From Limimaricola soesokkakensis (GTDB taxonomy: Bacteria > Pseudomonadota > Alphaproteobacteria > Rhodobacterales > Rhodobacteraceae), in contig NZ_FWFY01000014.1 in assembly GCF_900172345.1 (NCBI RefSeq), positions 1 to 44,247 of the forward strand: a stretch of DNA of 44,247 bases, given 5' to 3'. Of this stretch, positions 1,100 through 28,748 are shown piece after piece. Numbering within the stretch: position 1 is the stretch's first letter; each line of letters opens with the position of its first letter. The notes beneath the pieces were generated by a model. It had not been told where the DNA came from. It saw only the letters and a list, made by a program, of their open reading frames with translations, and ran no database searches. Both the position numbers and the translations under genes were made by a program.

Positions 1100-3220
1100 A
1101 TGCACCTAGAGGCTTTACAGACCGGAACCGGCGCGACGTGGCGCGGTTGGGCTCCTACAAACAGCCAAGCGGAGGGACCTTGGTTCATGTATGACGACGA
1201 GCTGCGCCCGGGCAATACGGGCCGCGCTGTCGGGGACAGCGCCCGCGAGATGGAGATACTGGCCAGCTCGCGCATTTGCATCGAGGGTGTCGATCCAGAG
1301 ATCGATGGCGGAAGGTTTGCCGCCAAATGCGTGGCCGGCCGCCCCTTCACCGTGCGCGCCGACATCTTCGGCGAGGGGCATGACAGCGTCCGGGCCGCGC
1401 TCTTGTGGTGGCGGCAGGGCGCGCAGGAGGTCCACGAGACGCCGATGCGGTTTCTCGAGAACGACCGCTGGGAAGGCAGTTTTACCCCGCCGGAGAACGC
1501 GCTCTACCGTTATACGCTGATCGCCTGGCGCGATGATTTCCTCACCTGGCGCAAGGATACCTCGAAGAAGGTGGCGGCCGCATTGAACGTCGATGTCGAG
1601 GCCGAGATCGGTCATCGGCTTGTCGCAGCCTCGCGCGATCACGCGCCGGAGGGCGAAGGCCGCGCGGCGCTCGAAAGCGTGGTCCATGCCACCAATCACG
1701 GCAGCACCGAGGAGCGCCTCGACATCCTGATGAACGAGGACACGCTGGCGCTGATGACCCGGGCCGGGCGGCGCTACTGCCTGACCCGTTTCGACCGGGA
1801 TCTGGCGGTCTTCGCCGACCGCGAGATCGCGGCCTTCTCGGCCTGGTACGAGTTGTTCCCGCGTTCGGCCGCGCCGGGGCTGCGCCACGGCACGTTCCGG
1901 GACGTGATCGACCGGCTGCCCTATGTGCGCGATCTGGGCTTCGATGTGCTCTATTTCACGCCGATCCACCCGATCGGCCGCACCAACCGCAAGGGCCGCA
2001 ACAACACGCTGACGCCGGGGCCCGATGATGTCGGCAGCCCCTATGCGATCGGCTCGGACGAGGGCGGCCACACCGCGATCCATCCCGAACTCGGCACGAT
2101 CGAGGATTTCGACGCGCTGGTCGAGGCGGCGCGCGGCCACGGGCTGGAGATCGCGCTGGACATCGCCCTCAATGCCTCGCCCGATCACCCGTGGATCAAG
2201 GAGCATCCCGACTGGTTCGAATGGCGCCCCGACGGCTCTATCGCCTATGCCGAGAACCCGCCCAAGAAGTACGAGGACATCGTCAACTTCCGCTATTACC
2301 TCGAGGATGGCAGCCCCAACGCCCCCTACTGGGAGGCGGTGCGCGACATGTTCCTCTACTGGGCAGATCATGGCGTGCTGTGCTTCCGGGTCGACAACCC
2401 GCACACCAAGCCCTTCCCGTTCTGGGAATGGGTGATCGACGAGGTGCGGGCCAAGCATCCCGGCGCGGTGTTCCTGTCCGAGGCCTTCACCCGGCCCAAG
2501 ATGATGAAGCGCCTCGCCAAGCTGGGCTACAACCAGTCCTACAGCTACTTCACCTGGCGCAACACAAAGGCCGAGCTGACCGAGTATCTGACCGAGCTGA
2601 CGAGCGAAGAGTGCCGCCACTACATGCGGCCGAATTTCTTCGTCAACACGCCCGACATCAACCCGTATTTCCTGCAGACATCGGGCCGCGCCGGGCATCG
2701 CATCCGCCTCGCTCTCGCCGCGACGCTCGCCGGAAATTACGGCGTCTACAGCGGCTACGAGATCTGCGAGGCCACGCCGATCCCCGGCAAGGAGGAGTAT
2801 CTCGACAGCGAGAAGTACGAGATCCGCGACTGGGATTTCGACCGCGAGGGGCACATCAAGGACGACATCCGGCTCCTGAACGGCATCCGCCGCAAGCATG
2901 CCGCGATGCGTGACTTCACCAATCTGGAGTTTTTCGACGCGCATGACGGGGCGGTGCTCTATTACGGCCGCTTCGACCCGGCGACCGAGAACTACCTGCT
3001 GTTCCACGTGCTGCTCGACCCGCATGCGGGGCGGGAATTCTCCTTCGACCTGCCGCTGTGGCGCTTTGGCCTGCCAGACGAGGCCTCGATCGAGGTGCAG
3101 GACGCGATCCACGGCAACCACTTTACCTGGCACGGCAAGGAACACCGGCTGACGCTCGACCCCGAGACCCGGCCCTATGCGATCTGGCGGCTGATCCCGC
3201 CGGGAGGAGCGAGAGATTGA
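1100..3220 (+). CDS. glgE: Alpha-1,4-glucan:maltose-1-phosphate maltosyltransferase
   Basis: GlgE extends alpha-1,4-glucans with maltose-1-phosphate in the cytoplasm (GH13_3 family). The 706-residue protein has the N-terminal beta domain and the TIM barrel. The nucleophile is D432 in FRVDNPHTKP, the acid/base E461 in LSEAFTRPKMM, and D519 in NTPDINPYF follows; the NASPDHPW and AENPPKKYEDI segments are GlgE hallmarks. The start at 1100 has GGAGG 5 nt upstream. ATG 1187 (GGAGGG 10 nt upstream) and ATG 1250 are alternatives, and the conserved domain only begins near 1250. It opens a four-gene alpha-glucan operon, and its TGA overlaps the treS start by one base (TGATG). No ADP-glucose genes (glgA, glgC) are in view. 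Confidence 0.93.
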   Translation: MHLEALQTGTGATWRGWAPTNSQAEGPWFMYDDELRPGNTGRAVGDSAREMEILASSRICIEGVDPEIDGGRFAAKCVAGRPFTVRADIFGEGHDSVRAALLWWRQGAQEVHETPMRFLENDRWEGSFTPPENALYRYTLIAWRDDFLTWRKDTSKKVAAALNVDVEAEIGHRLVAASRDHAPEGEGRAALESVVHATNHGSTEERLDILMNEDTLALMTRAGRRYCLTRFDRDLAVFADREIAAFSAWYELFPRSAAPGLRHGTFRDVIDRLPYVRDLGFDVLYFTPIHPIGRTNRKGRNNTLTPGPDDVGSPYAIGSDEGGHTAIHPELGTIEDFDALVEAARGHGLEIALDIALNASPDHPWIKEHPDWFEWRPDGSIAYAENPPKKYEDIVNFRYYLEDGSPNAPYWEAVRDMFLYWADHGVLCFRVDNPHTKPFPFWEWVIDEVRAKHPGAVFLSEAFTRPKMMKRLAKLGYNQSYSYFTWRNTKAELTEYLTELTSEECRHYMRPNFFVNTPDINPYFLQTSGRAGHRIRLALAATLAGNYGVYSGYEICEATPIPGKEEYLDSEKYEIRDWDFDREGHIKDDIRLLNGIRRKHAAMRDFTNLEFFDAHDGAVLYYGRFDPATENYLLFHVLLDPHAGREFSFDLPLWRFGLPDEASIEVQDAIHGNHFTWHGKEHRLTLDPETRPYAIWRLIPPGGARD

Positions 3221-6200
3221 TGGAAGACCAGAGCATGGCCCCCGCAGCCGAGGCGGACGCGATCGATAACAGCCAGCGCGACTGGTACAAGGACGCGGTC
3301 ATCTACCAGCTTCACGTCAAGGCCTACCAGGACAGCAATGGCGACGGCATGGGCGATTTCGCCGGCCTGATGAGCCGGCTCGACCATGTGCAGGAGTTGG
3401 GCGCGACGGCGATCTGGCTGCTGCCTTTCTACCCCTCGCCGCTGCGCGACGATGGCTACGACATCCAGGAATACACCGAGATCAACCCGCAATACGGCAA
3501 CATGGACGAGTTCCGCGCCTTCGTGGAGGAGGCGCATCGCCGGGGACTGCGGGTGATTACCGAGCTGGTGATCAACCACACCTCGGACCAGCACGAATGG
3601 TTTCAGCGGGCGCGCAACGCCCCCATCGGCAGCCCGGAGCGCGATTTCTACGTCTGGTCCGACGATGACGGCAAATGGCCCGAGACGCGGATCATCTTCA
3701 ATGACACCGAGCCGTCGAACTGGACCTGGGACCCGGTCGCGGGACAGTATTACTGGCACCGCTTCTTCAGCCACCAGCCCGACCTGAACTTCGACAATCC
3801 CGAAGTTCTGAAAGAGGTGCTGCGGGTCATGCATTTCTGGCTCGACATGGGCGTCGACGGGCTCAGGCTCGATGCGATCCCCTACCTCGTGGAGCGCGAC
3901 GGCACCAACAACGAGAACCTGCCCGAGACGCATGACGTGTTGAAGGCGATCCGCGCCGATCTCGACGCGCATTACCCGGACAAGATGCTTCTGGCCGAGG
4001 CCAACCAGTGGCCCGAGGACACTCGCCCCTATTTCGGCGATGGCGACGAATGCCACATGGGATTCCATTTTCCACTGATGCCGCGCATGTACATGGCGGT
4101 GGCGCAGGAGGACCGGCATCCGATCACCGACATCATTCGCCAGACGCCGGAAATCCCGGAGGACTGCCAATGGGCGATCTTCCTGCGCAACCATGACGAG
4201 CTGACGCTCGAGATGGTGACCGACAAGGAGCGGGATTACCTCTGGAACACCTATGCCAGCGACAAGCGCGCGCGGATCAACATGGGCATCCGCCGCCGTC
4301 TCGCGCCGCTGATGCAGAACGACCGGCGCAAGATCGAGCTCTTGAATTCGCTGCTGATGTCGATGCCCGGCACGCCGATCCTCTATTACGGCGACGAGAT
4401 CGGCATGGGCGACAACATCTATCTCGGGGACCGCGACGGCGTGCGCACGCCGATGCAGTGGTCGCCCGACCGCAATGCGGGCTTCTCCCGCGCCGATCCG
4501 CAGCGGCTCTATCTTCCGACGATCCAGGATTCGATCTACGGCTATCAGGCGCTCAACGTCGAAAGCCAGTCCAAGGACCCCTCCTCGCTTTTGAACTGGA
4601 TGCGCCGCATGGTGCAGGTGCGCTCGAACCACACGGTCTTCGGTCGTGGCGAGATGAAGCTGCTCTATCCATCCAATCGCCGGGTGCTCGCCTATATCCG
4701 CGAGCACGAGGGCGAGGCGGTGCTTTGCGTGGCCAATCTCGGCCGCGCCGCCCAGGCGGTCGAGATCGACCTGTCGGGCTATCAGGGCCGCGTGCCGATC
4801 GAGCTGACCGGGCATTCGGCCTTTCCGCCGATCGGCGCCCTGCCCTATCTGATCACCCTGCCCTCCTACGGCTTCTACTGGTTCCTGCTCGCCGACGAGG
4901 ATCAGACGCCGTCCTGGCATCAGGCACCGCAGCAGATCCTGCCGGAATTCGTGACGCTGACCACCCGCGACGGACGTGTGTCCTCGGCGATCTCGGGACG
5001 CGACGGGCGGCTTCTGGGCACCGACGTGCTGCCCAAGTTCCTGCCGCTCCAGCGCTGGTTCGCGGCCAAGGACGCCCGCATTTCCCGCGTCGCGATCGAG
5101 CCTCTGGCCGAGATCGGCCACAACGGCGCGCTGGGTCTCATCGATGTGGAGGTGGGCGGCGAGACGCAGCATTACCTGCTGCCGCTCGCGGCGGTCTGGG
5201 GCGAGGACAGCGTGTCCTTCGGCTCCTCGACGTTGGGCTACACCATGGCCAAGCTGCGTCGCGGCCCGCGCGTCGGCGGGCTGATCGACGGCACGGTGGA
5301 CGAAACCCTGATGGGCGAGATGCTGGTCGCGCTGCGCGACGGCTATGAGACCGACACGCCGCGTGGCCGACTGGTCTTTTCGCCCAGCGCGGCGATGGCC
5401 GAGATCGAGGACCCGGGCGAACCGCGGCTGCTCAATGTCGAGCAGTCCAACGCCACCGTGGCCTTCGGCGACAAGGTGATCCTCAAGGTCTACCGTCGCC
5501 TTCGCGCCGGGTTGCAGCCGGATATAGAGGTGGCGCGTTTCCTCACCGATGTCGCGGGCTTCGATCACACCCCGGCCTTCCTGGGTGAGATCGCGCTGCG
5601 CCCCGAAGGGGGCGAGGCCACCTCGCTGGGTGCCGCCTTCGCCTATGTCGCCAACCAGGGCGACGCTTGGGGCGCGCTCACCAACGCGCTCGACCGCTAC
5701 GTGCAGGACGCGGCCACGGGCAACGAGGACGAGGCACCACCCTACCAGCCGGTGCTCGGCATCGCCGGCACTTTGGGCCGCCGCACCGCCGAGATGCACC
5801 GGGCGCTGGCGCATCCGACCGATGACCCGGCCTTCGCGATCGAGCCGCTCACCAGCGCGGATCTCGCCGCGCTCTGCGACGAGGTCCGGGCCGAGACCGT
5901 GGCGATGCTCGACCGGCTCAAGGGCCTGTCCGACCTGCCCGAGCGGGCAGCCGACCATGCCCGCCAGATCCTCGATCGGCGCGACGTGCTGATTTCGAGG
6001 ATCGACGCGGTGTCGCGGATGCAGCCCTCGGGCGCGCGCAGCCGCATCCATGGCGACTACCATCTCGGCCAGGTGCTGATGGCCCAGAACGACGTGGTGA
6101 TCATCGACTTCGAGGGCGAACCCCGGCGGACGCTGGACGAGCGCCGCGCCAAGTCCCTTGCGCTGCGCGACGTGGCCGGCATGCTGCGCTCGCTCGACTA

Positions 6201-6497
6201 CGCCGCGCAATCTGCGCTGCGCTGGGCCGAAAGCTCTGGTACCGACGGCGCCGAGGCCGACGAGCTGATCCGGAACTGGCATGATGAAGCGCGACGCGAC
6301 TTCATGGCCGAGTACAAGGCGGTGGCCAGCGAAAACCCGGCGCATCCCGACGACGAACGCTTCGCGGCCGCGCTTCTGGATCTCTTCCTGATCCAGAAAG
6401 CGGTCTACGAAGTGGGCTACGAGCTTGCCAGTCGCCCGGCATGGGTGGACATTCCGCTGAGCGGCCTGCTCGACCTGATCGACGAAGAGGATACCCA

Positions 6498-6501
<4 letters not shown>
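3220..6501 (+). CDS. treS: Trehalose synthase / maltokinase fusion
   Basis: A 1093-residue bifunctional protein. Residues about 15-560 are a GH13 trehalose synthase that interconverts trehalose and maltose: nucleophile D218 ([10 protein letters not shown]), acid/base E260 ([11 protein letters not shown]) and D326 (NHDELTLE). Residues about 580-1093 are a maltokinase making maltose-1-phosphate, with the aminoglycoside-kinase-like motifs H944-G-D946-Y-H and D963-F-E-G. Fusion of the two steps that feed GlgE is a known arrangement. The start at 3220 overlaps the glgE stop and has GGGAGGAG 10 nt upstream; an in-frame extension to 3058 lies within glgE and is rejected. Its TGA overlaps the glgB ATG (ATGA), implying translational coupling. 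Confidence 0.93.
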
Positions 6502-8720
<2,219 letters not shown>

Positions 8721-8725
8721 CACGA

Positions 8726-8741
8726 CGGGCCCATGGGCCCG
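8726..8741. repeat. 16-nt palindrome after glgB
   Basis: CGGGCCCATGGGCCCG is a perfect palindrome that starts 6 nt after the glgB stop and is followed by CTTTCCCTC. It can form a hairpin in the intercistronic RNA (7-bp arms, or fewer to leave room for a loop). It may be a weak terminator or a stability element. Confidence 0.45.
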
Positions 8742-8752
8742 CTTTCCCTCAC

Positions 8753-8776
8753 GGGCCGGGCGCACCTGCCCGGCCC
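8753..8776 (+). other. Hairpin just upstream of malQ
   Basis: A perfect 9-bp stem GGGCCGGGC / GCCCGGCCC with a 6-nt loop ends 7 nt before the malQ Shine-Dalgarno sequence (GGAG at 8783-8786). There is no U-tract, so it probably acts on RNA stability or malQ translation rather than as a full terminator. This is inferred from position only. Confidence 0.4.
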
Positions 8777-8791
8777 CATCATGGAGCCCGC

Positions 8792-10606
8792 ATGACCGAC
8801 CTCGCCGATCTGTGCCGCCATCACGGGATCACCACCGAATATGACGACCCGCATGGCGAGGGCAGCCGCCCCGTTCCCGAGGCGACGCTGCGGCTGATCC
8901 TGCGCAAGATCGGCGTCGATCCCGACGGCGCGCCTGAGGGACCCGCCGCGCCGCAGGAGATGCAGGTGCCCGAGGACGGTATCTGTCATTTTCCCGACTG
9001 GCTCGACCGCGCCCCGAGCTGGGGCATATTCTGCCAGCTCTACGAGCTGCGCTCGGCCCGCAATCACGGCATCGGCGATTTCCGCGATCTTGCGGAGATG
9101 GCGCGGATCGCCGGGCGCGCCGGGGCGGATTTCCTCGGGGTGAACCCGCTGCATGCGCTGTTCCTCGGCGATCCCGACCGCCGCAGCCCCTTCTTCCCCT
9201 CGACCCGCAGCTTCCTCAACCCGGTCTATATCGCGCTCGACGACCTGCCGGGGCACGAGGCGGGGGATCTCGACGGCGAGGCGCTGCGCGCGGGCGATCT
9301 GGTGGATTACGACGCGGTGGTGCCCGCCAAGCTGAAAGCGCTGCGCGCGGCCTTCGACCGGCAGCCCTTCGATGACGACGAGGCGGATTTCGAGGATTTC
9401 GTGAAACGGGGCGCCGAGCCGCTGCGCCGTCACGCGCTGTTCGAGGCGCTGTCGCTGGCGATGGTGGCCGAGGGCCACGGCTCGGGCTGGAAGGGCTGGC
9501 CCGAGGCGCTCAGGGACGCGGACAGCCCCGAGGTCGCGGCTTTCGCCGACAGGAATGCGGAGGAGATCCGCTTCCATCTATGGCTGCAATGGCGCGCGAC
9601 GCGCCAGCTCGACGAAGCGCAGGCCTGCGCGCTCGAAGCGGGCATGCGCATCGGGCTCTATCTCGATCTCGCGGTGGGCGAGGCGCCCGACGGCTCGGCC
9701 AGCTGGAGCGGCGGCGAGGTGCAGATGACCGGTCTCGCGGTCGGTGCGCCGCCGGACGTCTTTGCCGCCGAGGGCCAGTATTGGGGCCTGTCCGCCTTCA
9801 ACCCGGGCACGCTGCGCAAGCTCGATTTCGCGCCGTTCCGCGACATGATCGGCGCGCAGCTTGCCCATGCCGGCGCGCTCAGGATCGACCACGCGATGGC
9901 GCTGTGGCAGCTTTTCCTGATCCCCGAGGGCGAGCCCGCCAGCGCCGGGGCGCATCTGCGATACCCCTTCTCCGACCTGCTGCGGGTGCTGGCGCAGCAA
10001 AGCCGCGCCCAGAACGCCGTGGTGATCGGCGAGGATCTGGGCTTCGTGCCGCCCGGCTTTCGCGAGGCGATGCAGGCGGCCAACATCCTGTCCTATTCGA
10101 TCCTCTATTTCGAAAAGGAGGACGACCGCTTCCGGGCGCCGCAGGAGTACAGCCCCACCGCGCTGGCCTGCCTTTCGACCCACGACCTGCCAGTGCTGGA
10201 GCGCTGGTGGGCCGGTGAGGACATCGCGCTGCGCCGCAAGCTCGGCCTCGTCGGCGAAGAGGACAGCGACGCGCATGAGAAGGGGCGCGCCCGCGAACGC
10301 CGCGCCCTGCTCGACGCGATGCGCCGCGCCGGCGCGTTGCGCGGGCGGCTGCCGCGCCAGAAGGAGATGCCGCGCGAGGTGCTGGTCGCGGCCTATCGCT
10401 ACCTCGCGCGCAGCCGCGCCGCGCTGGTCGGTGTTCGGCTGGCCGACATGGTCGGACCGCAGGCGCCGACCAACATGCCCGGCACGGTGGACGACTATCC
10501 GAACTGGCGCCCACGCGCGCCGATCGACCTGTCGCGGATCGCTACCCATCCCGACTTTCGTGCCGTGACCTCGATGATGCGGCGCGAGCGTCGGCGCGAC
10601 GCTTGA
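8792..10606 (+). CDS. malQ: 4-alpha-glucanotransferase (amylomaltase)
   Basis: A 604-residue GH77 enzyme that transfers alpha-1,4-glucan segments between chains. Diagnostic segments are GVNPLHALF, SPFFPSTRSFLNPVYI, the nucleophile D366 in LRIDHAMAL, E414 in VIGEDLGFVP and D465 in STHDLPVLE. The start at 8792 has GGAG 5 nt upstream; a longer frame beginning at 8645 runs through the glgB end and the two hairpins and is rejected. It is last in the glgE-treS/mak-glgB-malQ unit and is separated from glgB by 71 nt. It could recycle oligosaccharides from the branched glucan; no debranching enzyme (glgX) is present. The thiC promoter overlaps its stop codon. Confidence 0.92.
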   Translation: MTDLADLCRHHGITTEYDDPHGEGSRPVPEATLRLILRKIGVDPDGAPEGPAAPQEMQVPEDGICHFPDWLDRAPSWGIFCQLYELRSARNHGIGDFRDLAEMARIAGRAGADFLGVNPLHALFLGDPDRRSPFFPSTRSFLNPVYIALDDLPGHEAGDLDGEALRAGDLVDYDAVVPAKLKALRAAFDRQPFDDDEADFEDFVKRGAEPLRRHALFEALSLAMVAEGHGSGWKGWPEALRDADSPEVAAFADRNAEEIRFHLWLQWRATRQLDEAQACALEAGMRIGLYLDLAVGEAPDGSASWSGGEVQMTGLAVGAPPDVFAAEGQYWGLSAFNPGTLRKLDFAPFRDMIGAQLAHAGALRIDHAMALWQLFLIPEGEPASAGAHLRYPFSDLLRVLAQQSRAQNAVVIGEDLGFVPPGFREAMQAANILSYSILYFEKEDDRFRAPQEYSPTALACLSTHDLPVLERWWAGEDIALRRKLGLVGEEDSDAHEKGRARERRALLDAMRRAGALRGRLPRQKEMPREVLVAAYRYLARSRAALVGVRLADMVGPQAPTNMPGTVDDYPNWRPRAPIDLSRIATHPDFRAVTSMMRRERRRDA

Positions 10607-12666: not shown

Positions 12667-12735
12667 AGGCACGCGGGACCGGCGCGGATCAGCGTCGCTG
12701 ACGCGTTTTCCGATTGATCGGTTGGCCAGTGAAGT

Positions 12736-12773
12736 GAACGGCGGGCGGGGGCATGGCCCCGGGCCCGCCGTTC
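12736..12773. terminator. Hairpin terminator between thiC and the convergent EamA gene
   Basis: A perfect 11-bp stem (GAACGGCGGGC with GCCCGCCGTTC) encloses a G+C-rich internal region. It sits between two convergent genes, 70 nt after thiC and 5 nt after the EamA stop. U-tracts are weak, so termination activity is inferred mainly from position. Confidence 0.5.
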
Positions 12774-12777
12774 ATGC

Positions 12778-13752
12778 TCAGCCCTGCGGCGCGACGAGCC
12801 CTTCGGCACGGGTCCGGTCCCCTCGGGCGGCGGCCCTCTCGCGATGCACCACATAGCCGCCGGAGCCGAGGATGATCGCGGTGCCGACCGCAGTGGCGAT
12901 ATCCGGCAGGTCGCCGAACACCAGATAGCCGAGCAGCACCGCACCGACGATCTCGAGATACTGGAACGGCGCCAGAAGCCCCGCCTCGGAGCGGCGAAAC
13001 GCCTCGGCGATCAGCAGGAAGGTCGCTGCCGAGATCAGCCCGGCCAGTGGCAGCACCTTCCAGACCCAGCCGGGTGCGGCGGGCGCGGTGAAGCCCGGCC
13101 CGCCCGCCAGCGTCATCATCCCGAACAGCGCGAGCGCGATCAGCGCCGCGTAGAGCGTGGCCCCGGTCTGGATGGTGAGCGCCGAGCGCGAAGCCGAGGC
13201 ACTGCGAAGGATCACCGCGTTGAGCGCGTAGCCGGTCGCCGCCATCAGCGGCAGGAGCGCCGCCGGGGTGAAGCCTTCGAAGCCCGGGCGGATCACCACC
13301 AGCGCGCCCACGAACCCCACCGCGACGGCGGCGTAGCGGCGGGGCCCGACCTTCTCGCCCAAAAGCGGCGCGGCCAGCAGCACGAGGATCAGCGGCTCCA
13401 CGAAGAAGATCGCGATGGCGGTGGCGATCGGCATCACCGCGAAGGCGCCGACGAGACCGGTCATGGTGACGACCGAGCACAGCCCCGACAGGATCAGCAC
13501 CGGCGAGAACATCGCGCCCCGTAACCTGTCCCGCATCAGCAGCGCCAGCGCCGCCAGCGTCGCGCCCTGAAAGCAGAAGCGCCACAGCACCACCTCGGCG
13601 GGCGGCATTGCCCCGGTGAGCAGCTTGGCCAGCGTGTCGCCCACCGGCAGCAGCGCCATGGCGACCACCATCAACGCGATGCCGGTGCCGACGGGCCCGT
13701 GATCGGTGCGGCGGGCGGGGGCGACCGGGCTCTTTGTGCGGGGTCTGATCAT
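12778..13752 (-). CDS. EamA/DMT-superfamily membrane transporter
   Basis: A 324-residue inner-membrane protein with the ten hydrophobic segments and two-fold EamA repeat of drug/metabolite transporters (the first begins GTGIALMVVAMALLPVGD, followed by the conserved AxLWRFCFQG-type turn). Substrates of this superfamily are very varied and cannot be assigned here. The start at 13752 has GGGAG 6 nt upstream; the longer frame to 13875 would begin at the predicted transcription start and is rejected. It has its own promoter at 13882-13910, so it need not be co-transcribed with the large helicase-nuclease gene upstream. It converges with thiC across a hairpin. Confidence 0.85.
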   Translation of the reverse strand: MIRPRTKSPVAPARRTDHGPVGTGIALMVVAMALLPVGDTLAKLLTGAMPPAEVVLWRFCFQGATLAALALLMRDRLRGAMFSPVLILSGLCSVVTMTGLVGAFAVMPIATAIAIFFVEPLILVLLAAPLLGEKVGPRRYAAVAVGFVGALVVIRPGFEGFTPAALLPLMAATGYALNAVILRSASASRSALTIQTGATLYAALIALALFGMMTLAGGPGFTAPAAPGWVWKVLPLAGLISAATFLLIAEAFRRSEAGLLAPFQYLEIVGAVLLGYLVFGDLPDIATAVGTAIILGSGGYVVHRERAAARGDRTRAEGLVAPQG

Positions 13753-13881
13753 GGGCGTCTCCCAACATGCGCGCGCCGCCTCGCGGCGGGGCGCGACCGT
13801 CCGGGCGTCCGGGACGAGAATGATGAGATGGCCGGGGGCCCGAACGACGCCATCGTCGGCCCCGTGACCGGCCATGCCACA

Positions 13882-13910
13882 GGGCTAGTGACCCCGCGCC
13901 GGCCGGTCAA
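13882..13910 (-). promoter_or_regulatory. Promoter of the EamA transporter gene
   Basis: On the minus strand TTGACC (13910-13905) and TAGCCC (13887-13882) are separated by 17 nt, placed between the end of the helicase-nuclease gene and the EamA gene. The predicted 5' UTR is about 120 nt. Confidence 0.5.
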
Positions 13911-13931
13911 GCCTCAGGGCTTCGGCGCGCA

Positions 13932-16900
13932 TCACTCTCCCGGGGCGGGCAGAGACAGGCGGCGCGGACGCGCGGCCTCGCGCCGCGCCCGATCCTCGGC
14001 CAGCGCCTCGCGCAGCCGGGTATCCAGACGCTCGGCCACGTGGCCCGGCGCGCGGAACCAGTCGGTCGACCAGACCCGCTCGATGCGCCATCCGAGGCCC
14101 TCCAGCACCGCCTGCCGCACCCGGTCGCGGTCGCGTGCGGTGGCCGCCGAGTGATAGCTTGCCCCGTCGCATTCGACGCCCGCGAGATATGCTCCGCCCC
14201 GGTCCGGATGCACCACCGCGAGATCGATGCGGTAGCCCGACACCCCGATCTGCGTGCGCACCTCCCAGCCCCTAGCCTCGAGCGCGCGCGCCACCGCCGC
14301 CTCGAACGGGTTCTCGGCCGGGCCGAGACTGCCCGTCTCGCGCGCGGGCAACGCCATCGCGCCGCGATCGGCGTAGTCGAGGAACGCCTTGAGATCGGCG
14401 ACGCCGCGGGCGCGGCTGCGGCCCAGATCGATCTGCTCGGCCCCGAGCGAGGCGAAGACATGTAGCTCGCGCCGCGCCCGGGTGATCGCCACGTTGAGCC
14501 GCCGCTCCCCGCCCTCGGCGTTGAGCGCGCCGAAATTCATCGAGAGCTTGCCCGCGAGATCCGGCCCGAAGGTGACCGAGAACAGCATCACGTCGCGCTC
14601 GTCGCCCTGGATGTTCTCGAGGTTCTTGACGATGAGCGGCTCGTCTCGCGCCTCGTCAAAGAACCATTCCAGCTCGGGCATCTCGCGGCGCATCGCGTCG
14701 AGCTGGTCGAGGATGAGGCCCTGCTGATCGCCGTTGAAGGTGATGACGCCGATGCTGTGGCGCTGCGCCTCCGGCTGCGCCAGCGCCGCCACGAGCCGCT
14801 CACGGATAAGCGCCACCACGGCGCGCGCCTCCTCGATGTTGGTGCGGCCCCGGCCGCGCCCATAGCGCCCGTCGACCCGGTGCAGGGTGATCGCCTCGCG
14901 CCCCGTGCCCGGCGACGGGAAGGTGACGAGACCGCCATCGTAGTAGAAGTGGTTCGAAAACGCGATCAGCGCCTCGTCGCGTGAGCGGTAGTGCCAGTCG
15001 AGCCGCCGCACCGGCACGCCCGAGGCCGCCACCTCGTCGAGGATCGACGGCATGTCCCGCAGCGCGAAGACGTCTTCGTCCTCGTCCTCCTCTTCCTCGG
15101 AGCGGCCGAAGAAGTTGGTCGGCGGCAGCTGCTTGGGGTCGCCCACCACGATCGCCTGCCGCCCGCGCGCGATGGCGCCGATCGCGTCCCACGTGGTGAT
15201 CTGGCTCGCCTCGTCAAAGATCACCACGTCGAAGGCGGGTTGTCCGGCGGGCAGGTATTGCGCCACCGACAAGGGTGACATCAACACGCAAGGCGCGAGG
15301 TGCGGCAGGCTCTCGGGCATCTGCCCCAGAAGCTGCCGGATCGGCATCGATGGCCGCTTCAGCCCCAGCTGGTGGCGCAGCACGCCCAGTTCCGAGGCGC
15401 GCGGCACCGCGTCGCGCGCCGGCAGGTCGCCACCGATCCGGCGCAGCGCCTCGGCGGGGGCAAGTGCGGCGGCGCGGTCGTCGAGCATGCGGAACCGCGC
15501 CACGAGATCGTCATGGGCCCAGTGGGCGAAATCGCGCAGCAGCGGTTCTGCATCCATGGCGCGCGGCAGCCACCAATCGGCATAGGCGGCCTCGAAGGCT
15601 TCGCGCGCGGGCCGGTCGAGCCGCCCCGCCTCGATCGCCTCGACCAGCGGGCCCAGCCCCGCCGCCTCGGCCCGGCCGTGCAGCGCGATCCAGCGGGTCC
15701 AGTCGGCCAGCCGCGCCGCCTGACGCTCCAGCGTTTCCAGCGCCTGGACCAGTTCGGCGGGTGCCATGGTTTCGGGCACCAGCCCGCCGAGATCCACATA
15801 GGCATCGCGGGCCGCCCGAACCTCGGCTTCGGCCGTCTCCAGCGCAGCCAGCGCCGCGCGGATCGGCCCGCTGCCGGGCCGGGTCAGCTCGGCCCGCATC
15901 GCACCGAGCCGCGCGGGATCGGCACCCTCGCTCGCAAGGGCCCCCACGGCCGTCTCGAGCCTGCGCCGGGCCTCGATGAGCCGTTCGATCCGCTCGGCAG
16001 GCAGATGCGCCAGCGGCGAGGCATCGCGCGCCGCGCGGGCCCGGCCAAGCCGGTGCAGCGCCTCGAGATCGGGGCCGGGATCGACCTCACCCGCCCGCGC
16101 ATGGCTTTGCAGCACGGCGCGCACCCGCCGCCGCGCCAGCGCCGAGAGCGGCCAGATCCCGCCCTGCGCCGCGCGCCATTCGGCATCGAGCGCCGCGAGG
16201 TCGATGCGGCTGTCGGCATCCTCCGGATATTCCGCCGCGAGCCGTCCGCGCGCCGCCGCCATCGCCGTTTCGGCCTCGGCGCGCTCCCGTGCCGCGCGCT
16301 CCAGCTCGGCGAGCGGCAGCTCGGGCAGCGCGGAGAGGTCCGGCGCCTGCGGGTCCGCGAGCAGCGTCAGCTCGGCGAAAAGCGCCCGCCGCGCCGCCAT
16401 GCGCGCCGCCTCGGGGGCAAGGCCCAGCCGGTCGCACAGTCCACCCAGCGCGCGGTCGAGGCCCCGTGCGGCGCGGCCCAGCGCGGCCACCGCATCGAGG
16501 AACCGCGCCTGCCAGTCGAAGGACCATTCGACATCGCCCAGAAGATCGTGCGGCGCGCCCTGCCCGGCCACTTGCGCGAGACGCTCCAGATCACCGGCGA
16601 GATCGCGCAGCCGCGCGTAGCTTTCGGCGTCATGCGCGTCCACCCCAGCGAAGCCGAGGCGCAGCGGCGGCACGCCCGCCGCGACGCGGCCGATCGCCTC
16701 GAACACCGAAAAGCCCTGCCGTCCCTTGCGATGCAGCGCCGCGACATAGGCGTTGAGTCGGTCGCGGGTGAGCCGCAGATCCTCGGTCACCTCGATCCAG
16801 TCGGCCTCGTCCCCCGCCGCCGCGCGGTCCCAGCCCCGCCCAAGCTGCGCCAGCACCGAGGCACGGTCGGTCTTGCTCGAATGCAGCTCGAGGCAGGCGT

Positions 16901-19082
16901 CGCCCAGACCGCATCCCGCGAGACGGCGATGCACCACGTCGAGCGCGGCGGCCTTCTCGGCCACGAAGAGCACGGTCCGCCCCTGCGACAGCACCTGCGC
17001 GATGATGTTGGCGATGGTCTGGCTCTTGCCGGTACCGGGCGGGCCGATGAGCACGAAGTCGCGGCCCTGTGCCGCCGCCGCCACGGCGGCGAGCTGGCTG
17101 CTGTCGGCGGGCAGCGGCGTCACCAGATCGGCCGGGGCCAGCACCCGGTCGAGATCGCGCGGCGCAATCACCGGCAGGTCGGGCTGCGGATAGGCCGTTT
17201 CGGGCCCGTCGAGCAGGTGCCGCACCAGCGGGCTGTCGCGCAGCTCCGCCTCGCGCGCGACCAGATCCTCCCACATCAGGAACTTGGCGAAGGAAAAGGT
17301 CGAGAGCGCCAGTTCCTCGATCACCTCGAAACCGGGCATGTCGCGCACCGCGAGGCGCACCAGATCGAAGATCCGCGCGAGGTCGATGCCGCTGTCGTCG
17401 CGCGGCAGCTCGCCGTCGAGACCGGGCACCGACAGCGCGAAATCGCGGCGCAGGAATTCGAGCAGCGTCGCGTTGACGCGCACCTCGTCCTCGAGATGGC
17501 CCAGACGGAACTCGGACTTGGCCGAACGTCGGTCGAGCCGCGCCGGGATCAACAGCAACGGCGCGCGGTAGGCCCGCTCCTCGCCCTCGCGGCGCCAGCG
17601 TAGGAAGCCCGCGGCAAGGAACAGCGTGTTGGTGCCACCCTCCTGCAGGTCGCTCTTGGCGCGCCGGTGCAGCGCCACGAGCCGCGATTGCAGCTCGGCC
17701 GTCGTCAGCGGCGCGGCGAGGCGTCCGCGCTCCTGCGCCTGCGCCGCGCGGCGCGCTATTTCGTCCGGCGACAGGCTCTCAGCCTCTTCCATCGGCACCG
17801 GGATGGCAGTGGCGCCGCCCGCCAGACGATCCTCCAGCGCCGCCATGTCGGCGCACAGGAACGGCACCGCGCCGCGCCCGTCGCGGAAATTGAGCAAGCG
17901 ATTGCGCAGCGACAGGTCCAGAAGCTTGCGCTGCCAGCGCTCGATCCGCCCCTCGGGGGTGACGGGACTTTCCTCGATTTCGGCCACCGGCAGATCGGCC
18001 GCTGCGGGTGCGCGCGGCAAGGGCGGCCTCGTCACCTCCCCCGTCTCCGGAGCGGGCTCGAGCCCGGTCTCGGCCATCGGCATGATCCCGTTCGCCCGCG
18101 CCGCCGCAACATCGATCGCGGCGATGAAGCCCGTCTCCTGCGCTTCGTCGCCCAGCGCCCGCCCCCCGGCCACCGCCGCTTCGAAGCCCATGCCACGGCC
18201 CGAAAGCTCCGGGTCGAGCATCAGCAGCTCGCGCGCGGCGATCGCCTTGCGCAGCGCCACGGCGTCGGGCTCGACCACACGACCGAAATCGCGGTCGACC
18301 AGCCAGACGCCGCACCAGACCCGCCCCTGCGCGAAGGACAGCACCGGGTTCAGCCCCAGCGCCTCCATCCCCGCCGCCAAAAGCAGCGATGCCTCCAGCG
18401 GCGTCGCCAGACGCTCGGCACGGATCCGCGACGCCGATCGCAGCTTCTGGCCGCGACTGGCCACGTCGCCGCCCGCCACCGCGCCGCGCACGCCCCAGCC
18501 CTGAAGCGCGGACCAGATCGCCGCCGCCTGCATCCAGGCCCGGCCCGGATCGCCGGAGCGGTAGCCGTCGGGATCGCCCTGCCCGGCCTGCGCCAGAAGC
18601 GCCTGCGCCCCCTCGACCAGCCCCGCCGCGACCGCCGCGTCTGGCCGCGCGAAGGCAGGCAGCAGATGCGCCATTTCGCCCAAGCCGCCCCATTCGTCGC
18701 GCGCCAGAAGCGTCACCCGGCGTTCGGCGCGGGCCAGCACCTGTCCCCCCTGCCGCAGCTCCAGCCGCAGCAGCGCCGGCTCCGCCGCCTCCAGCGTCGC
18801 GAGCGGCATCGCGTCGAGCGTCACTGCCAGATCACCGATCGCGAGGCGGTCCCCGGGGGCGATCCGGTCGAGACGCCATTGACGTGGTCGCAGCACCGCC
18901 GGGTCGGACCACAGATGCAGCTGCGCCCCCTTGATCGCCGCGTCGCCGTCATGGCGCAGCGCCAAGCTCCTGATTACCGCCGAGCGGGCCTGCGCGGCGA
19001 CGAAACCCAGCCGCGCCACCGCGTCGATCTCGATCGTGAGGCGCGGCGAAACGGTCGGAAGCTGCATCTTGGGGTTCGTCAT
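13932..19082 (-). CDS. DUF4011 / SF1 helicase / Vsr-like nuclease protein (candidate Hhe-type anti-phage defence)
   Basis: A 1716-residue protein. Residues 1-370 are a beta-rich part plus a transglutaminase-like module, about 373-640 the DUF4011 region (from RIERWQRKLLDLSLRNRLLN), and 679-1600 a superfamily 1 helicase: Walker A GPPGTGKS with K686, a long Ala/Glu/Arg-rich coiled insert, Walker B D1290-E1291-A-S, GDPKQLPPTNFF, QGDERDVMLF and NVAITRARREL. The C-terminus is a PD-(D/E)XK/Vsr-like nuclease with D1620 (GYRIDLAV) and E1637-C-D1639-G. This order matches the single-gene Hhe system as remembered from surveys of defence genes, so a role against phage DNA is inferred. Start 19082 has GGAGAG 5 nt upstream. 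The transglutaminase-like module appears to have lost its catalytic Cys and His (P228, R254). No neighbouring mobile-element gene is seen. Confidence 0.82.
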   Translation of the reverse strand: MTNPKMQLPTVSPRLTIEIDAVARLGFVAAQARSAVIRSLALRHDGDAAIKGAQLHLWSDPAVLRPRQWRLDRIAPGDRLAIGDLAVTLDAMPLATLEAAEPALLRLELRQGGQVLARAERRVTLLARDEWGGLGEMAHLLPAFARPDAAVAAGLVEGAQALLAQAGQGDPDGYRSGDPGRAWMQAAAIWSALQGWGVRGAVAGGDVASRGQKLRSASRIRAERLATPLEASLLLAAGMEALGLNPVLSFAQGRVWCGVWLVDRDFGRVVEPDAVALRKAIAARELLMLDPELSGRGMGFEAAVAGGRALGDEAQETGFIAAIDVAAARANGIMPMAETGLEPAPETGEVTRPPLPRAPAAADLPVAEIEESPVTPEGRIERWQRKLLDLSLRNRLLNFRDGRGAVPFLCADMAALEDRLAGGATAIPVPMEEAESLSPDEIARRAAQAQERGRLAAPLTTAELQSRLVALHRRAKSDLQEGGTNTLFLAAGFLRWRREGEERAYRAPLLLIPARLDRRSAKSEFRLGHLEDEVRVNATLLEFLRRDFALSVPGLDGELPRDDSGIDLARIFDLVRLAVRDMPGFEVIEELALSTFSFAKFLMWEDLVAREAELRDSPLVRHLLDGPETAYPQPDLPVIAPRDLDRVLAPADLVTPLPADSSQLAAVAAAAQGRDFVLIGPPGTGKSQTIANIIAQVLSQGRTVLFVAEKAAALDVVHRRLAGCGLGDACLELHSSKTDRASVLAQLGRGWDRAAAGDEADWIEVTEDLRLTRDRLNAYVAALHRKGRQGFSVFEAIGRVAAGVPPLRLGFAGVDAHDAESYARLRDLAGDLERLAQVAGQGAPHDLLGDVEWSFDWQARFLDAVAALGRAARGLDRALGGLCDRLGLAPEAARMAARRALFAELTLLADPQAPDLSALPELPLAELERAARERAEAETAMAAARGRLAAEYPEDADSRIDLAALDAEWRAAQGGIWPLSALARRRVRAVLQSHARAGEVDPGPDLEALHRLGRARAARDASPLAHLPAERIERLIEARRRLETAVGALASEGADPARLGAMRAELTRPGSGPIRAALAALETAEAEVRAARDAYVDLGGLVPETMAPAELVQALETLERQAARLADWTRWIALHGRAEAAGLGPLVEAIEAGRLDRPAREAFEAAYADWWLPRAMDAEPLLRDFAHWAHDDLVARFRMLDDRAAALAPAEALRRIGGDLPARDAVPRASELGVLRHQLGLKRPSMPIRQLLGQMPESLPHLAPCVLMSPLSVAQYLPAGQPAFDVVIFDEASQITTWDAIGAIARGRQAIVVGDPKQLPPTNFFGRSEEEEDEDEDVFALRDMPSILDEVAASGVPVRRLDWHYRSRDEALIAFSNHFYYDGGLVTFPSPGTGREAITLHRVDGRYGRGRGRTNIEEARAVVALIRERLVAALAQPEAQRHSIGVITFNGDQQGLILDQLDAMRREMPELEWFFDEARDEPLIVKNLENIQGDERDVMLFSVTFGPDLAGKLSMNFGALNAEGGERRLNVAITRARRELHVFASLGAEQIDLGRSRARGVADLKAFLDYADRGAMALPARETGSLGPAENPFEAAVARALEARGWEVRTQIGVSGYRIDLAVVHPDRGGAYLAGVECDGASYHSAATARDRDRVRQAVLEGLGWRIERVWSTDWFRAPGHVAERLDTRLREALAEDRARREAARPRRLSLPAPGE

Positions 19083-19106
19083 CCGTTCTCTCCTGCGCTT
19101 CGGCGG

Positions 19107-19135
19107 ACATGAATCCATTTGCCCTTTGCCGTCAA
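19107..19135 (-). promoter_or_regulatory. Possible promoter of the helicase-nuclease gene
   Basis: On the minus strand TTGACG (19135-19130) lies 17 nt before TCATGT (19112-19107), 24 nt upstream of the start codon. The -35 box is good and the -10 poor, so the call is tentative. Confidence 0.3.
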
Positions 19136-19189
19136 CAGCCTCGCCCCGATCCGGCAGCGCACCGCCGATGCATCGGGGAAGCGAAAGGC

Positions 19190-19218
19190 TGGACAAGGAC
19201 CCCACGCATCGATTTATC
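19190..19218 (+). promoter_or_regulatory. Promoter of the TRAP binding-protein gene
   Basis: TGGACA (19190-19195) and TTTATC (19213-19218) are 17 nt apart, about 60 nt upstream of the GTG start at 19279. The locally A+T-richer -10 in an otherwise G+C-rich region supports the call. Confidence 0.45.
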
Positions 19219-19278
19219 TCGCGCGAGGGCCCGCATCCGGGAGGGGCGCGGGACGTGAGAGACAGCAGGGAGAGACGC

Positions 19279-20364
19279 GTGGATCGTCGTTCGTTCATCA
19301 CCAAGGCCGGTCTGGGTGCCGGCGCCGCCGCACTGGCCGCACCCGCCGTGGCGCAGGGCAACATCACCTGGCGCATGGTCACCACCTGGCCCAAGAACTT
19401 TCCGGGCCTCGGCGTCGGCGCCCAGCGCCTCGCGGACCGGATCACCGCCGCCTCGGGCGGCCGGCTGACGATCCAGGTCTACTCGGCCGGCGAGCTGGTG
19501 CCGCCGCTGCAATCGCTCGACGCGGTGATCGACGGCACCGCCGAGATGTCGCATTCGGCCGCCTATTACTGGCAGAACAAGTCCTCGGCGCTGAACTTCT
19601 TCACCGGCGTGCCCTACGGCATGACCTCGACCGAGCTTGCCGGCTGGATGCGTCACATGGGCGGTCAGGAGTTGTGGGACGAGGTCTATGACCAGTTCGG
19701 CGTGAAGGGCTTCCTGTCGGGCAACACCGGCACCCAGGCCGGCGGCTGGTTCCGCGACGAGGTCACCGGTCTCGACAGCCTCAAGGGTCTGCGCTTCCGC
19801 ACCCCGGGCCTCGGTGGCCGTGTCTGGGAAAAGCTGGGCGTCACCGCGACCAACATGGCCGCGGGCGAGATCTTCCAGGCGCTGCAGTCGGGTGCCCTCG
19901 ACGCGGCCGAGTTCGTGGGCCCCTACAACGACCTCGCGCTGGGCTTCCATCAGGTCGCCAAGAACTACTACTTCCCCTCCTTCGTGGAGCCGGGCCTCGC
20001 CACCGAGCTGGTGGTCGACAAGGCGAAGTACTCCGAGCTGCCCGAGGACCTGCAGGCGATCATCCGTGACGTGTCGCAGGCCGAGTACGACATGGTGGCC
20101 TCGGATTTCGCGGCCAACGACCCGCGCGCGCTCAACACGCTGATGAACGAGCATGGCGTCCAGGTGAAGCAGTTCCCCGAGGAAGTGCTCGAGGCCGCGG
20201 CCGGCGCCGCCAAGGAGGTTCTGGGCGAGCTGCGCGACAGCGGCGACGACCTGACCAAGCGCACCACCGAGAGCTTCATCGAGTCGCTCAAGCTCCTGCG
20301 CACCAAGGCGCAGACCGCGGACGCCAACTTCATCCGCGCCCGCGAGCAGTATTTCGAGATGTGA
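19279..20364 (+). CDS. TRAP transporter substrate-binding protein (DctP/TakP-like)
   Basis: A 361-residue periplasmic binding protein of the TRAP family. It starts with a Tat-type signal (DRRSFITKAG, then AAPAVAQ). The pattern AGELVP, GNTGTQAGGWFR and EFVGPYNDLALGF resembles TakP, which binds 2-oxo acids in Rhodobacter sphaeroides; the arginine of GGWFR is in the position expected to hold a substrate carboxylate. A monocarboxylate or 2-oxo acid ligand is inferred, not shown. The start is a GTG at 19279 with GGGAGAG just upstream, chosen because the signal peptide begins there. The cognate membrane genes are probably dctM and dctQ on the opposite strand across a shared terminator. Confidence 0.85.
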   Translation: MDRRSFITKAGLGAGAAALAAPAVAQGNITWRMVTTWPKNFPGLGVGAQRLADRITAASGGRLTIQVYSAGELVPPLQSLDAVIDGTAEMSHSAAYYWQNKSSALNFFTGVPYGMTSTELAGWMRHMGGQELWDEVYDQFGVKGFLSGNTGTQAGGWFRDEVTGLDSLKGLRFRTPGLGGRVWEKLGVTATNMAAGEIFQALQSGALDAAEFVGPYNDLALGFHQVAKNYYFPSFVEPGLATELVVDKAKYSELPEDLQAIIRDVSQAEYDMVASDFAANDPRALNTLMNEHGVQVKQFPEEVLEAAAGAAKEVLGELRDSGDDLTKRTTESFIESLKLLRTKAQTADANFIRAREQYFEM

Positions 20365-27494: not shown

Positions 27495-28748
27495 TCAGGC
27501 GAAGCGGCGACCGGCCTCCAATGCAAGACCGGTGCCGACCGAGCCCAGCATGTCCCCCGTGGCGATCCGCGCCTCGGGCAGATGCGCGGCCACTAGCGAC
27601 CGCAGTACTGGCAGCCGCGAGGAACCGCCGGTCATGAACACCGTTCCGATCGCCTGCGGTCCGACGCCGGCCTGTGACAGTACCGCGCCGATCCGCTCGC
27701 CGATCCGGCGCAGCGGCATGGCGATCGCCTCCTCGAAACCCGTGCGCGTCACCACCGGGTTCGGACCGCCCACGAGCGGCTTCAACTCCAGCCGCGCGGC
27801 CTCGGCCTCCGACAGGTCGAGCTTCACCCCCTCGACCGCCATGGCGAGCGCATGGCCGCGCCGATCCTCGACCGCGCGGACCATCCGGTCCACGAGTTCG
27901 GAGGCATCCGCCTCCCGGGACAGCGCCTTGAGATCCGACAGGGCCCGCGCCGCGTAGAGCCGATTGATGCGATGCCACGTGGCGAAATCCACGTAGTAGT
28001 GACGCGGCATGTCTCCCTTGCCGCCGCGGATCGGGCTGCCGAGGCCGAGATACGGCATCGCGCTCGCGAGGCTCAGCAGCCGGTCGAGATCGGTGCCGCC
28101 GACGCGGATGCCGTCATTGGCGAGGATGTCATCCGCGCGATCCGGCCGTTCCATCCGGTCGGGGCCGACGCGCACCACCGAGAAATCCGAGGTGCCGCCG
28201 CCGATGTCGACGATGAGGACCAGTTCCTCCTGCGCGGTGCCGCTTTCGTAATCCAGCGCCGCCGCGATCGGCTCGTATTGAAAGCCGACCTCGGAGAAGC
28301 CCGCGCCGCGCGCGATCTCCTCCAGCGCGTCCTGCGCCGCGCGGTCGCCCGCCGCGTCGTCATCGACGAAATGCACGGGCCGGCCCAGCACCGCGCGCTC
28401 CACCCCCGGCGCGACCGCGTCGAGCCGAGCGCGCAGGTGGCCGAAGTACCGGCCGAGGATCTCGACGAAGCTCACCGAGCGACGGCCGATCGCGGTGCGC
28501 TCGGTGATGAGCGAGGAGCCCAGCGTGCTCTTGAGACCGCGCAGCAGACGCCCCTCCTCGCCCGTCACATAGGCCGAGATCGCGGCGCGGCCGAAGATCG
28601 GCGCCGGGTCGTCCACCTCCCAGAACACGGCGCTGGGCAGCGTCACCTCGTCACCCTCGAGCGCGATCAGCCGCGCCCCGCGCGCAGCGCCGAGCCCCAT
28701 GGTGGAGTTGGAGGTGCCGAAATCGATGCCGCAGGCCACGGGGGTCAT
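27495..28748 (-). CDS. YegD-type Hsp70 family ATPase
   Basis: A 417-residue Hsp70-fold protein made almost only of the nucleotide-binding domain. Phosphate motif 1 is GIDFGTSNST, phosphate motif 2 VLIVDIGGGTSDFS and the adenosine motif VFMTGGSSRLPVL. The substrate-binding and lid domains of DnaK are missing, as in the E. coli YegD group, whose cellular role is not settled. The start at 28748 has GGAGA 7 nt upstream. A CTAGAC box 50-60 nt upstream may be its -10, but the -35 is weak. It lies between a transporter operon and the flagellar cluster, with no evident link to either. Confidence 0.88.
   Translation of the reverse strand: MTPVACGIDFGTSNSTMGLGAARGARLIALEGDEVTLPSAVFWEVDDPAPIFGRAAISAYVTGEEGRLLRGLKSTLGSSLITERTAIGRRSVSFVEILGRYFGHLRARLDAVAPGVERAVLGRPVHFVDDDAAGDRAAQDALEEIARGAGFSEVGFQYEPIAAALDYESGTAQEELVLIVDIGGGTSDFSVVRVGPDRMERPDRADDILANDGIRVGGTDLDRLLSLASAMPYLGLGSPIRGGKGDMPRHYYVDFATWHRINRLYAARALSDLKALSREADASELVDRMVRAVEDRRGHALAMAVEGVKLDLSEAEAARLELKPLVGGPNPVVTRTGFEEAIAMPLRRIGERIGAVLSQAGVGPQAIGTVFMTGGSSRLPVLRSLVAAHLPEARIATGDMLGSVGTGLALEAGRRFA

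Follow-up and report, generated by a model that had tools for sequence, protein, structure and literature searches.

The DNA analysed here (the window) is a stretch of 44,247 nucleotides from Limimaricola soesokkakensis and represents a single contig within a genome of 3.94 Mb. Its minus strand carries a gene at 13932-19082, with the ATG at 19082-19080 and the end of the stop codon at 13932, whose product is 1716 amino acids long and without internal stop. A search of the genome at E 0.001 returned no second copy. A preliminary description of this DNA gave the same coordinates exactly, without the strand. The features of the locus are as follows.

13932..19082, minus strand: ProA-type gene, 1716 aa, the sole copy found in the genome
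19088..19094, minus strand: Shine-Dalgarno-like AGGAGAG, 5 nt upstream of the ATG, read directly in the sequence
18699..19049, minus strand: N-terminal beta-sandwich, residues ~12-128 (AlphaFold2 model of residues 12-345, pLDDT 92.8)
18093..18692, minus strand: transglutaminase-like region, residues ~131-330, catalytic pair lost (alignment; profile of relatives against Transglut_core, E=2.9e-4)
18399..18401, minus strand: P228, at the position of the relatives' Cys (alignment)
18321..18323, minus strand: R254, at the position of the relatives' His (alignment)
17451..17927, minus strand: DUF4011, residues 386-544 (PF13195, 1.1e-40)
16803..17117, minus strand: helicase core part 1, residues 656-760 (borders set here), with motif I GPPGTGKS including K686 (Pfam, alignment)
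15393..16802, minus strand: fast-evolving stretch separating the helicase parts, residues 761-1230 (borders set here; divergence comparisons)
14403..15392, minus strand: helicase core part 2, residues 1231-1560 (borders set here), with DEAS 1290, GDPKQ 1314, HYRSR 1364, QGDERD 1492 and TRAR 1534
14013..14306, minus strand: MTES_1575/Vsr-type PD-(D/E)XK nuclease, residues 1593-1690, with D1620, E1637 and D1639 (PF18741, 4.4e-35)
13935..14054, minus strand: C-terminal stub of 40 residues, where most relatives have 220-300 residues including DUF3320 (wHTH) (alignment, tail profile)
19279..20364, plus strand: TRAP DctP solute-binding protein, the divergent upstream neighbour (PF03480, 9.5e-48)
12778..13752, minus strand: EamA transporter, the downstream neighbour (PF00892, 7.4e-19)

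The preliminary description had read DUF4011, an SF1 helicase and a Vsr-like nuclease on one chain, in a candidate anti-phage gene, and this reading is borne out. The Pfam matches are far beyond chance (DUF4011 1.1e-40, MTES_1575 REase 4.4e-35, AAA_11 2.1e-19, AAA_12 3.6e-14), with the SF1 helicase domains between residues 660 and 1544, and the family is labelled anti-phage. The residues named there are all in place (K686 in GPPGTGKS, D1290-E1291, GDPKQLPP at 1314, TRAR from 1534, D1620, E1637 and D1639), as is the gene's own ribosome site, AGGAGAG at 19094-19088. Its remarks on promoters are unsupported, because a sigma-70-like scan of 12700-19450 was empty and such a scan says little in an alphaproteobacterium. 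The leader before the EamA gene has an RNA fold z of -2.29.

The domain set characteristic of ProA, DUF4011, SF1 helicase and MTES_1575 nuclease, is present with its motifs intact. NCBIfam NF058533 (anti-phage protein ProA, equivalog) scores the protein at 1799.3 bits, above its cut-off of 1500, and scores L. variabilis at 1749 and L. pyoseonensis at 1730 bits; the name ProA for this gene follows the NCBIfam label. The best PADLOC model is PDC-S37, at 1129 bits. The gene had been described as an Hhe system, in which DUF4011 is followed by an SF1 helicase and a Vsr-like nuclease. This order is common to both, and the Hhe matches are significant, yet the NCBIfam Hhe equivalog NF042953 gives 803.4 bits against a cut-off of 2000, and Hhe in PADLOC gives 576 bits, about half the PDC-S37 score. 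Since ProA passes its own cut-off and PDC-S37 leads, Hhe is the wrong name; by these profile scores membership of that family is refuted and has become very improbable, a similar function being conceivable. L. pyoseonensis also has another DUF4011 helicase (G005, L039:7598-13144), 1849 aa in length; at 1096 bits for Hhe and 973 for ProA it is below both cut-offs, and on these scores it belongs to an unnamed subfamily.

The match to the ProA model spans residues 29-1705 and ends at model position 1718 of 1903, and the protein is therefore without the DUF3320 tail. That tail is not strictly defining for ProA. Because a Cys/His pair of the transglutaminase-like region is also lost, the gene is filed here as what its sequence indicates, a ProA-derived variant and not a complete ProA. 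The preliminary description was correct for the helicase and nuclease parts of the chain but overlooked the N-terminal 380 residues, with their dead transglutaminase-like site, and the missing C-terminal tail.

The N-terminal region was compared in an alignment of 80 rows, comprising the window protein and 79 of the best 80 loci (L094, with a split frame, was left out). The Cys/His pair is kept in all 74 non-Limimaricola rows and lost in all six Limimaricola rows. The split-frame copy of L. cinnabarinus LL-001 has lost it as well, so that the loss extends to 7/7 Limimaricola copies showing the region. The window protein has P228 for the Cys and R254 for the His; at these positions L. pyoseonensis carries Ala and Arg, respectively. 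The pair is common to every relative sampled here outside the genus and is not a published ProA criterion. Its loss is one change on a quick tree, and Fisher values, which count related rows as independent, are to be read with this single change in mind.

Profile comparison suggests what the region may be. A profile of 35 relatives aligned by hhalign with one of 16 transglutaminase-core domains (one of 17 left out) at E=2.9e-4 and a probability of 41% in a single comparison, with Cys placed on Cys and His on His, while eight control profiles gave E 0.03-0.48. Pfam Transglut_core matches 2 of the 35 members, with a best E of 0.097, so we call the relatives' region transglutaminase-like, with Cys and His in register, at moderate confidence. 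AlphaFold2 models of a relative (pLDDT 94.0) and of the window protein (92.8, residues 12-345) have similar secondary structure, in which the Cys position opens a helix and the His position opens a strand. The best Foldseek match of the relative's model is transglutaminase 2, but with an rmsd of 16.8; the structure matches of this model span residues 1-117, which is the beta-sandwich only, and those of the window model are similar in length. Judging by the matched targets, the beta-sandwich is presumably Ig-like. A search of PDB sequences with the N-terminal profile gave no convincing relative.

The second reduction is at the C-terminus. Past the nuclease, Limimaricola proteins continue for 40-47 residues, against mostly 220-300 elsewhere, and in a complete relative from Pseudoroseicyclus DUF3320 falls within this tail. 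A tail profile has no match in the Limimaricola loci, nor in 5 of the 74 other loci, so tail loss, which amounts to five changes on the tree, probably happened more than once. Falsirhodobacter has one ProA, on a 2.3 Mb contig (L077), in which the tail is missing and the Cys/His pair is retained. A separate DUF3320 was sought in the eight Limimaricola genomes, and none was over the cut-off; there was one match below it, of 18 positions, in G003.

The helicase and nuclease present a different picture. K686, D1290, E1291, D1620, E1637, C1638 and D1639 are identical in 80/80 aligned rows, in agreement with the intact helicase and PD-(D/E)XK C-terminus proposed for this protein. Nei-Gojobori dN/dS was estimated among five Limimaricola, in 6 of the 10 pairs that these can form. 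It is 0.14-0.28 over the whole gene; by part, the nuclease has 0.02-0.18, the second helicase part 0.05-0.21 and the transglutaminase-like region 0.21-0.41. The value is higher with L. pyoseonensis (0.52 for the whole gene), where dS is unreliable. By these measures the residues of the helicase and the nuclease remain intact, and selection conserves them. The divergence of the transglutaminase-like region relative to the helicase has a median ratio of 2.31 in 15 Limimaricola pairs versus 1.43 in 885 other pairs (5-95% 1.07-1.98, maximum 3.56), the pairs not being independent. Taken together, the dN/dS values and divergence ratios suggest that the helicase-nuclease engine is held, with the dead domain under weaker, though still some, constraint.

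It is conceivable, but improbable, that these losses mark a defence gene in decay whose protein no longer works. Such a process could explain why the catalytic Cys/His pair and the tail are both gone and why the transglutaminase-like region evolves faster relative to the helicase; it could also draw on two of the eight Limimaricola genomes examined, all of which match the ProA-type gene. In G001 the gene is seen to residue 191, and in G002 (L. cinnabarinus LL-001, loci L032/L094) it is in two frames. The first of these copies ends at a contig edge, the remainder not being found in that assembly, and the second is likely a sequencing error, because the same assembly also splits thiC, livK and DctP. 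The frame is open in the other six genomes, and the low nuclease and helicase dN/dS across species and the retention of the key residues argue against decay.

The position of the gene is as constant as its core. It adjoins the DctP gene of the TRAP transporter in 8/8 Limimaricola genomes, and the EamA gene is on its other side in the seven in which the contig continues. The preliminary description took the locus to fit a stand-alone system that had inserted between housekeeping genes. The first part agrees with the result that no defence partner was found beside the gene among 10 neighbours scanned, but the notion of an accessory insertion is misleading, given that 8/8 genomes of the genus share the site. 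It had also held that presence at the same site in all relatives, with no defence association, would speak against a defence system; occupation of one site throughout the sampled genus corresponds to the first half of that statement. An empty site was sought in G016 and G009, from other genera with a close TRAP operon. In the stretch retrieved from each, both lack ProA and also the other window neighbours tested, so no exact insertion point can be given.

No convincing defence gene emerged when 10 window neighbours were scanned with PADLOC. The matches were those of two glucan enzymes, to a model described as GlgB, and of an Hsp70-like gene, to PDC-M61B (34 bits). A glucan pathway cluster occupies 1100-10606, in which genes for a GlgE-like protein, an alpha-amylase (maltogenic type), a GlgB-like protein and a GH77 enzyme stand in a row. 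The Hsp70-like gene, at 27495-28748, encodes an Hsp70/MreB-like ATPase, with only this weak match, between a liv transporter and flagellar genes, which, like the remaining window genes outside the scan, were named by eye from their translations.

The constancy of the site raises the main rival explanation, namely domestication: in Limimaricola the gene would have given up its defence role, and its helicase-nuclease would now maintain the genome by clearing broken or branched DNA. We consider this unlikely, though more plausible than decay. It would accommodate the single site in 8/8 genomes away from recognised defence genes, as well as the prior loss of the Cys/His pair and the tail, and the SF1 kin with solved structures include the nucleic-acid maintenance helicases SMUBP-2, SEN1 and DNA2. 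Fixation, though, is seen in a single genus, and the protein is only 80-84% identical to those of four genomes of other species and 60% identical to that of L. pyoseonensis, well under the 94-97% of TRAP_M and under most liv genes. This identity argument is weak because malQ (79-86%) changes about equally fast.

Outside the genus the distribution is patchy. ProA is over the cut-off in 10 of 246 genomes of the family, two of which are Limimaricola. Among 72,556 plasmid records, 325 match at E <=1e-50, 53 of them covering >=80% of the query and all with <60% identity; 234 of the 325 are from Klebsiella and 200 are typed conjugative. Distant ProA relatives are thus common on Klebsiella plasmids, and the Klebsiella rows among the matches listed are annotated as DUF3320 proteins. 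Falsirhodobacter also has a plasmid copy (L177) whose annotation names DUF4011 alone; kaiB/kaiC and replication genes are close to it. Phage records provide one match among 50,697 at 1e-20, and eight loci were found on viral contigs. In the quick tree (79 rows, LG+G4, SH-aLRT only; L098 left out), Limimaricola forms one clade with SH-aLRT 100 and a stem of 0.3, and beta- and gammaproteobacterial rows are nested among those of alphaproteobacteria. The pattern fits transfer elsewhere and vertical descent within Limimaricola, and proves neither.

In other genera, ProA recurrently has two partners, an Mre11/SbcD-like phosphoesterase of ~370-425 aa and a Rad50/SbcC/YhaN-like ATPase of ~860-1160 aa. 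The pair can be seen on either side of ProA, often co-stranded and close (for example, L075, L076, L080, L097, L116 and L143), and the DxH, GNHD and GHxH motifs are present in 7/7 of the M1 phosphoesterase group. Both partner profiles match at 34 of the 74 non-Limimaricola loci, a count tied to the profiles in that some of these loci supplied them, and at 26 of the 52 loci flanked by >4.5 kb on either side. When seven nearly identical Mesorhizobium loci are removed, these figures become 27/67 and 19/45. At one of the 34 loci (L111) both profiles match a single open frame. Partner frames are on the ProA strand within 150 bp in 30 of the 36 loci having any partner match. The profiles matched in none of 20 arbitrarily placed 12-kb control regions from 11 genomes of the genus, family and class, and the difference from 19/45 has a Fisher p of 2.5e-4, with related rows taken as independent. 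On plasmids, an annotated DNA repair exonuclease adjoins ProA or lies one gene off in 6 of 11 regions viewed, out of 30 matches listed. The pair comes and goes, with 14 changes on the tree. We found no paper in the open-licence literature that joins DUF4011 or DUF3320 with an Mre11/Rad50-like pair.

No such pair is found beside the Limimaricola gene, and a search of the eight genomes for the Rad50-like partner, with one query protein for each of two types, returned no match. Metallophosphoesterase domains in general match 12 times in the genome of the window. Because the pair is also absent at 26/52 long-flank loci outside the genus, its absence here is not special. A link between loss of the tail and loss of the pair was considered and rejected: the pair occurs at 1/5 loci without the tail and 33/69 with it, which is not significant (Fisher p 0.37, related rows again counted as independent). 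PADLOC assigned 63 models to the 111 nearest ProA neighbours in other genera (leaving out the seven near-identical Mesorhizobium loci, neighbours >1150 aa and two further); the 25 of these listed include a type I methyltransferase, HamA and mad2, most with a single member, and no enrichment is claimed because the scan had no control.

Our preferred reading, to which we give a probability of roughly 0.55, is that the gene is a reduced, lineage-fixed form of the anti-phage protein ProA that acts on DNA as proposed here. By transfer, a ProA gene would have entered the ancestor of Limimaricola and taken its place between the TRAP and EamA genes. Retained as a chromosomal gene, it would have lost the protease-like site, the tail and, if ever present, the partners. 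The protein may load on foreign or damaged DNA, along which the ATP-driven helicase would travel while the C-terminal nuclease cuts. The dead N-terminal domain could have a structural or regulatory function, and targets would now be chosen independently of the winged-helix tail. Thus slimmed down and fixed in the genus, ProA probably still attacks foreign DNA.

This reading draws on the ProA score (1799 bits against 1500), the top rank of PDC-S37 in PADLOC, the key residues kept in 80/80 rows, the low dN/dS, the one site in 8/8 genomes, the one clade with SH-aLRT 100 and the patchy, plasmid-borne and taxon-scattered occurrence elsewhere. Against it stand the lack of a convincing defence gene among the 10 neighbours scanned, since fixation in a genus would also be compatible with another role, and the dN/dS of 0.52 with L. 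pyoseonensis, for which dS is unreliable. It also counts against this reading that a published proposal assigns target recognition to the wHTH tail, a part absent from the Limimaricola form.

More tentatively, ProA may commonly work in an undescribed module with the Mre11-like phosphoesterase and the Rad50/SbcC-like ATPase, with sensing or control falling to its transglutaminase-like protease and its wHTH tail. In Limimaricola this module would have collapsed to its helicase-nuclease engine, fixed as a core chromosomal immunity (or genome-surveillance) gene without protease, DNA reader or partners. The recurrent partners in relatives are a concrete lead on how ProA may work with DNA ends. The genus also offers a natural test of which parts are needed in a giant defence protein, as all of it keeps the helicase-nuclease without the protease-like site and the wHTH tail, and it probably illustrates how a defence gene that is widely transferred can become fixed in a chromosome.

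Among known systems, the closest is ProA itself (NF058533, near the PADLOC candidate PDC-S37), with which the protein shares its DUF4011, SF1 helicase and MTES_1575 nuclease and a score over the equivalog cut-off. The Limimaricola form differs from it in having no DUF3320 tail, in the changes of Cys to Pro (Ala in L. pyoseonensis) and of His to Arg, in having no Mre11/Rad50-like neighbours and in being fixed in the genus. Hhe (NF042953 and the PADLOC model) shares the domain order, but not the score (803 against a cut-off of 2000). Hachiman HamAB, as presented in PMC12278908, is similar by analogy only: there a helicase senses DNA and controls a nuclease, in two proteins and with no homology claimed. 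A parallel for the fixed place is PA14_RS11765, which the pertinent part of PMC10250203 describes as a core DUF4011 gene flanking cDHS1 in every isolate of P. aeruginosa. It flanks a defence hotspot, whereas the Limimaricola gene does not, and the likeness is that of a DUF4011 gene at a fixed place. The passage concerned in PMC3710099 proposes a defence role for giant proteins of the MTES_1575 type, in which HEPN accompanies a transglutaminase, an SF-I helicase, a Vsr nuclease and a wHTH in that order. The window protein has no HEPN among the best 25 of 26 Pfam families, no wHTH/DUF3320 and a dead transglutaminase-like site, and it shares with these proteins the succession of a transglutaminase-like region, a helicase and an MTES_1575 nuclease.
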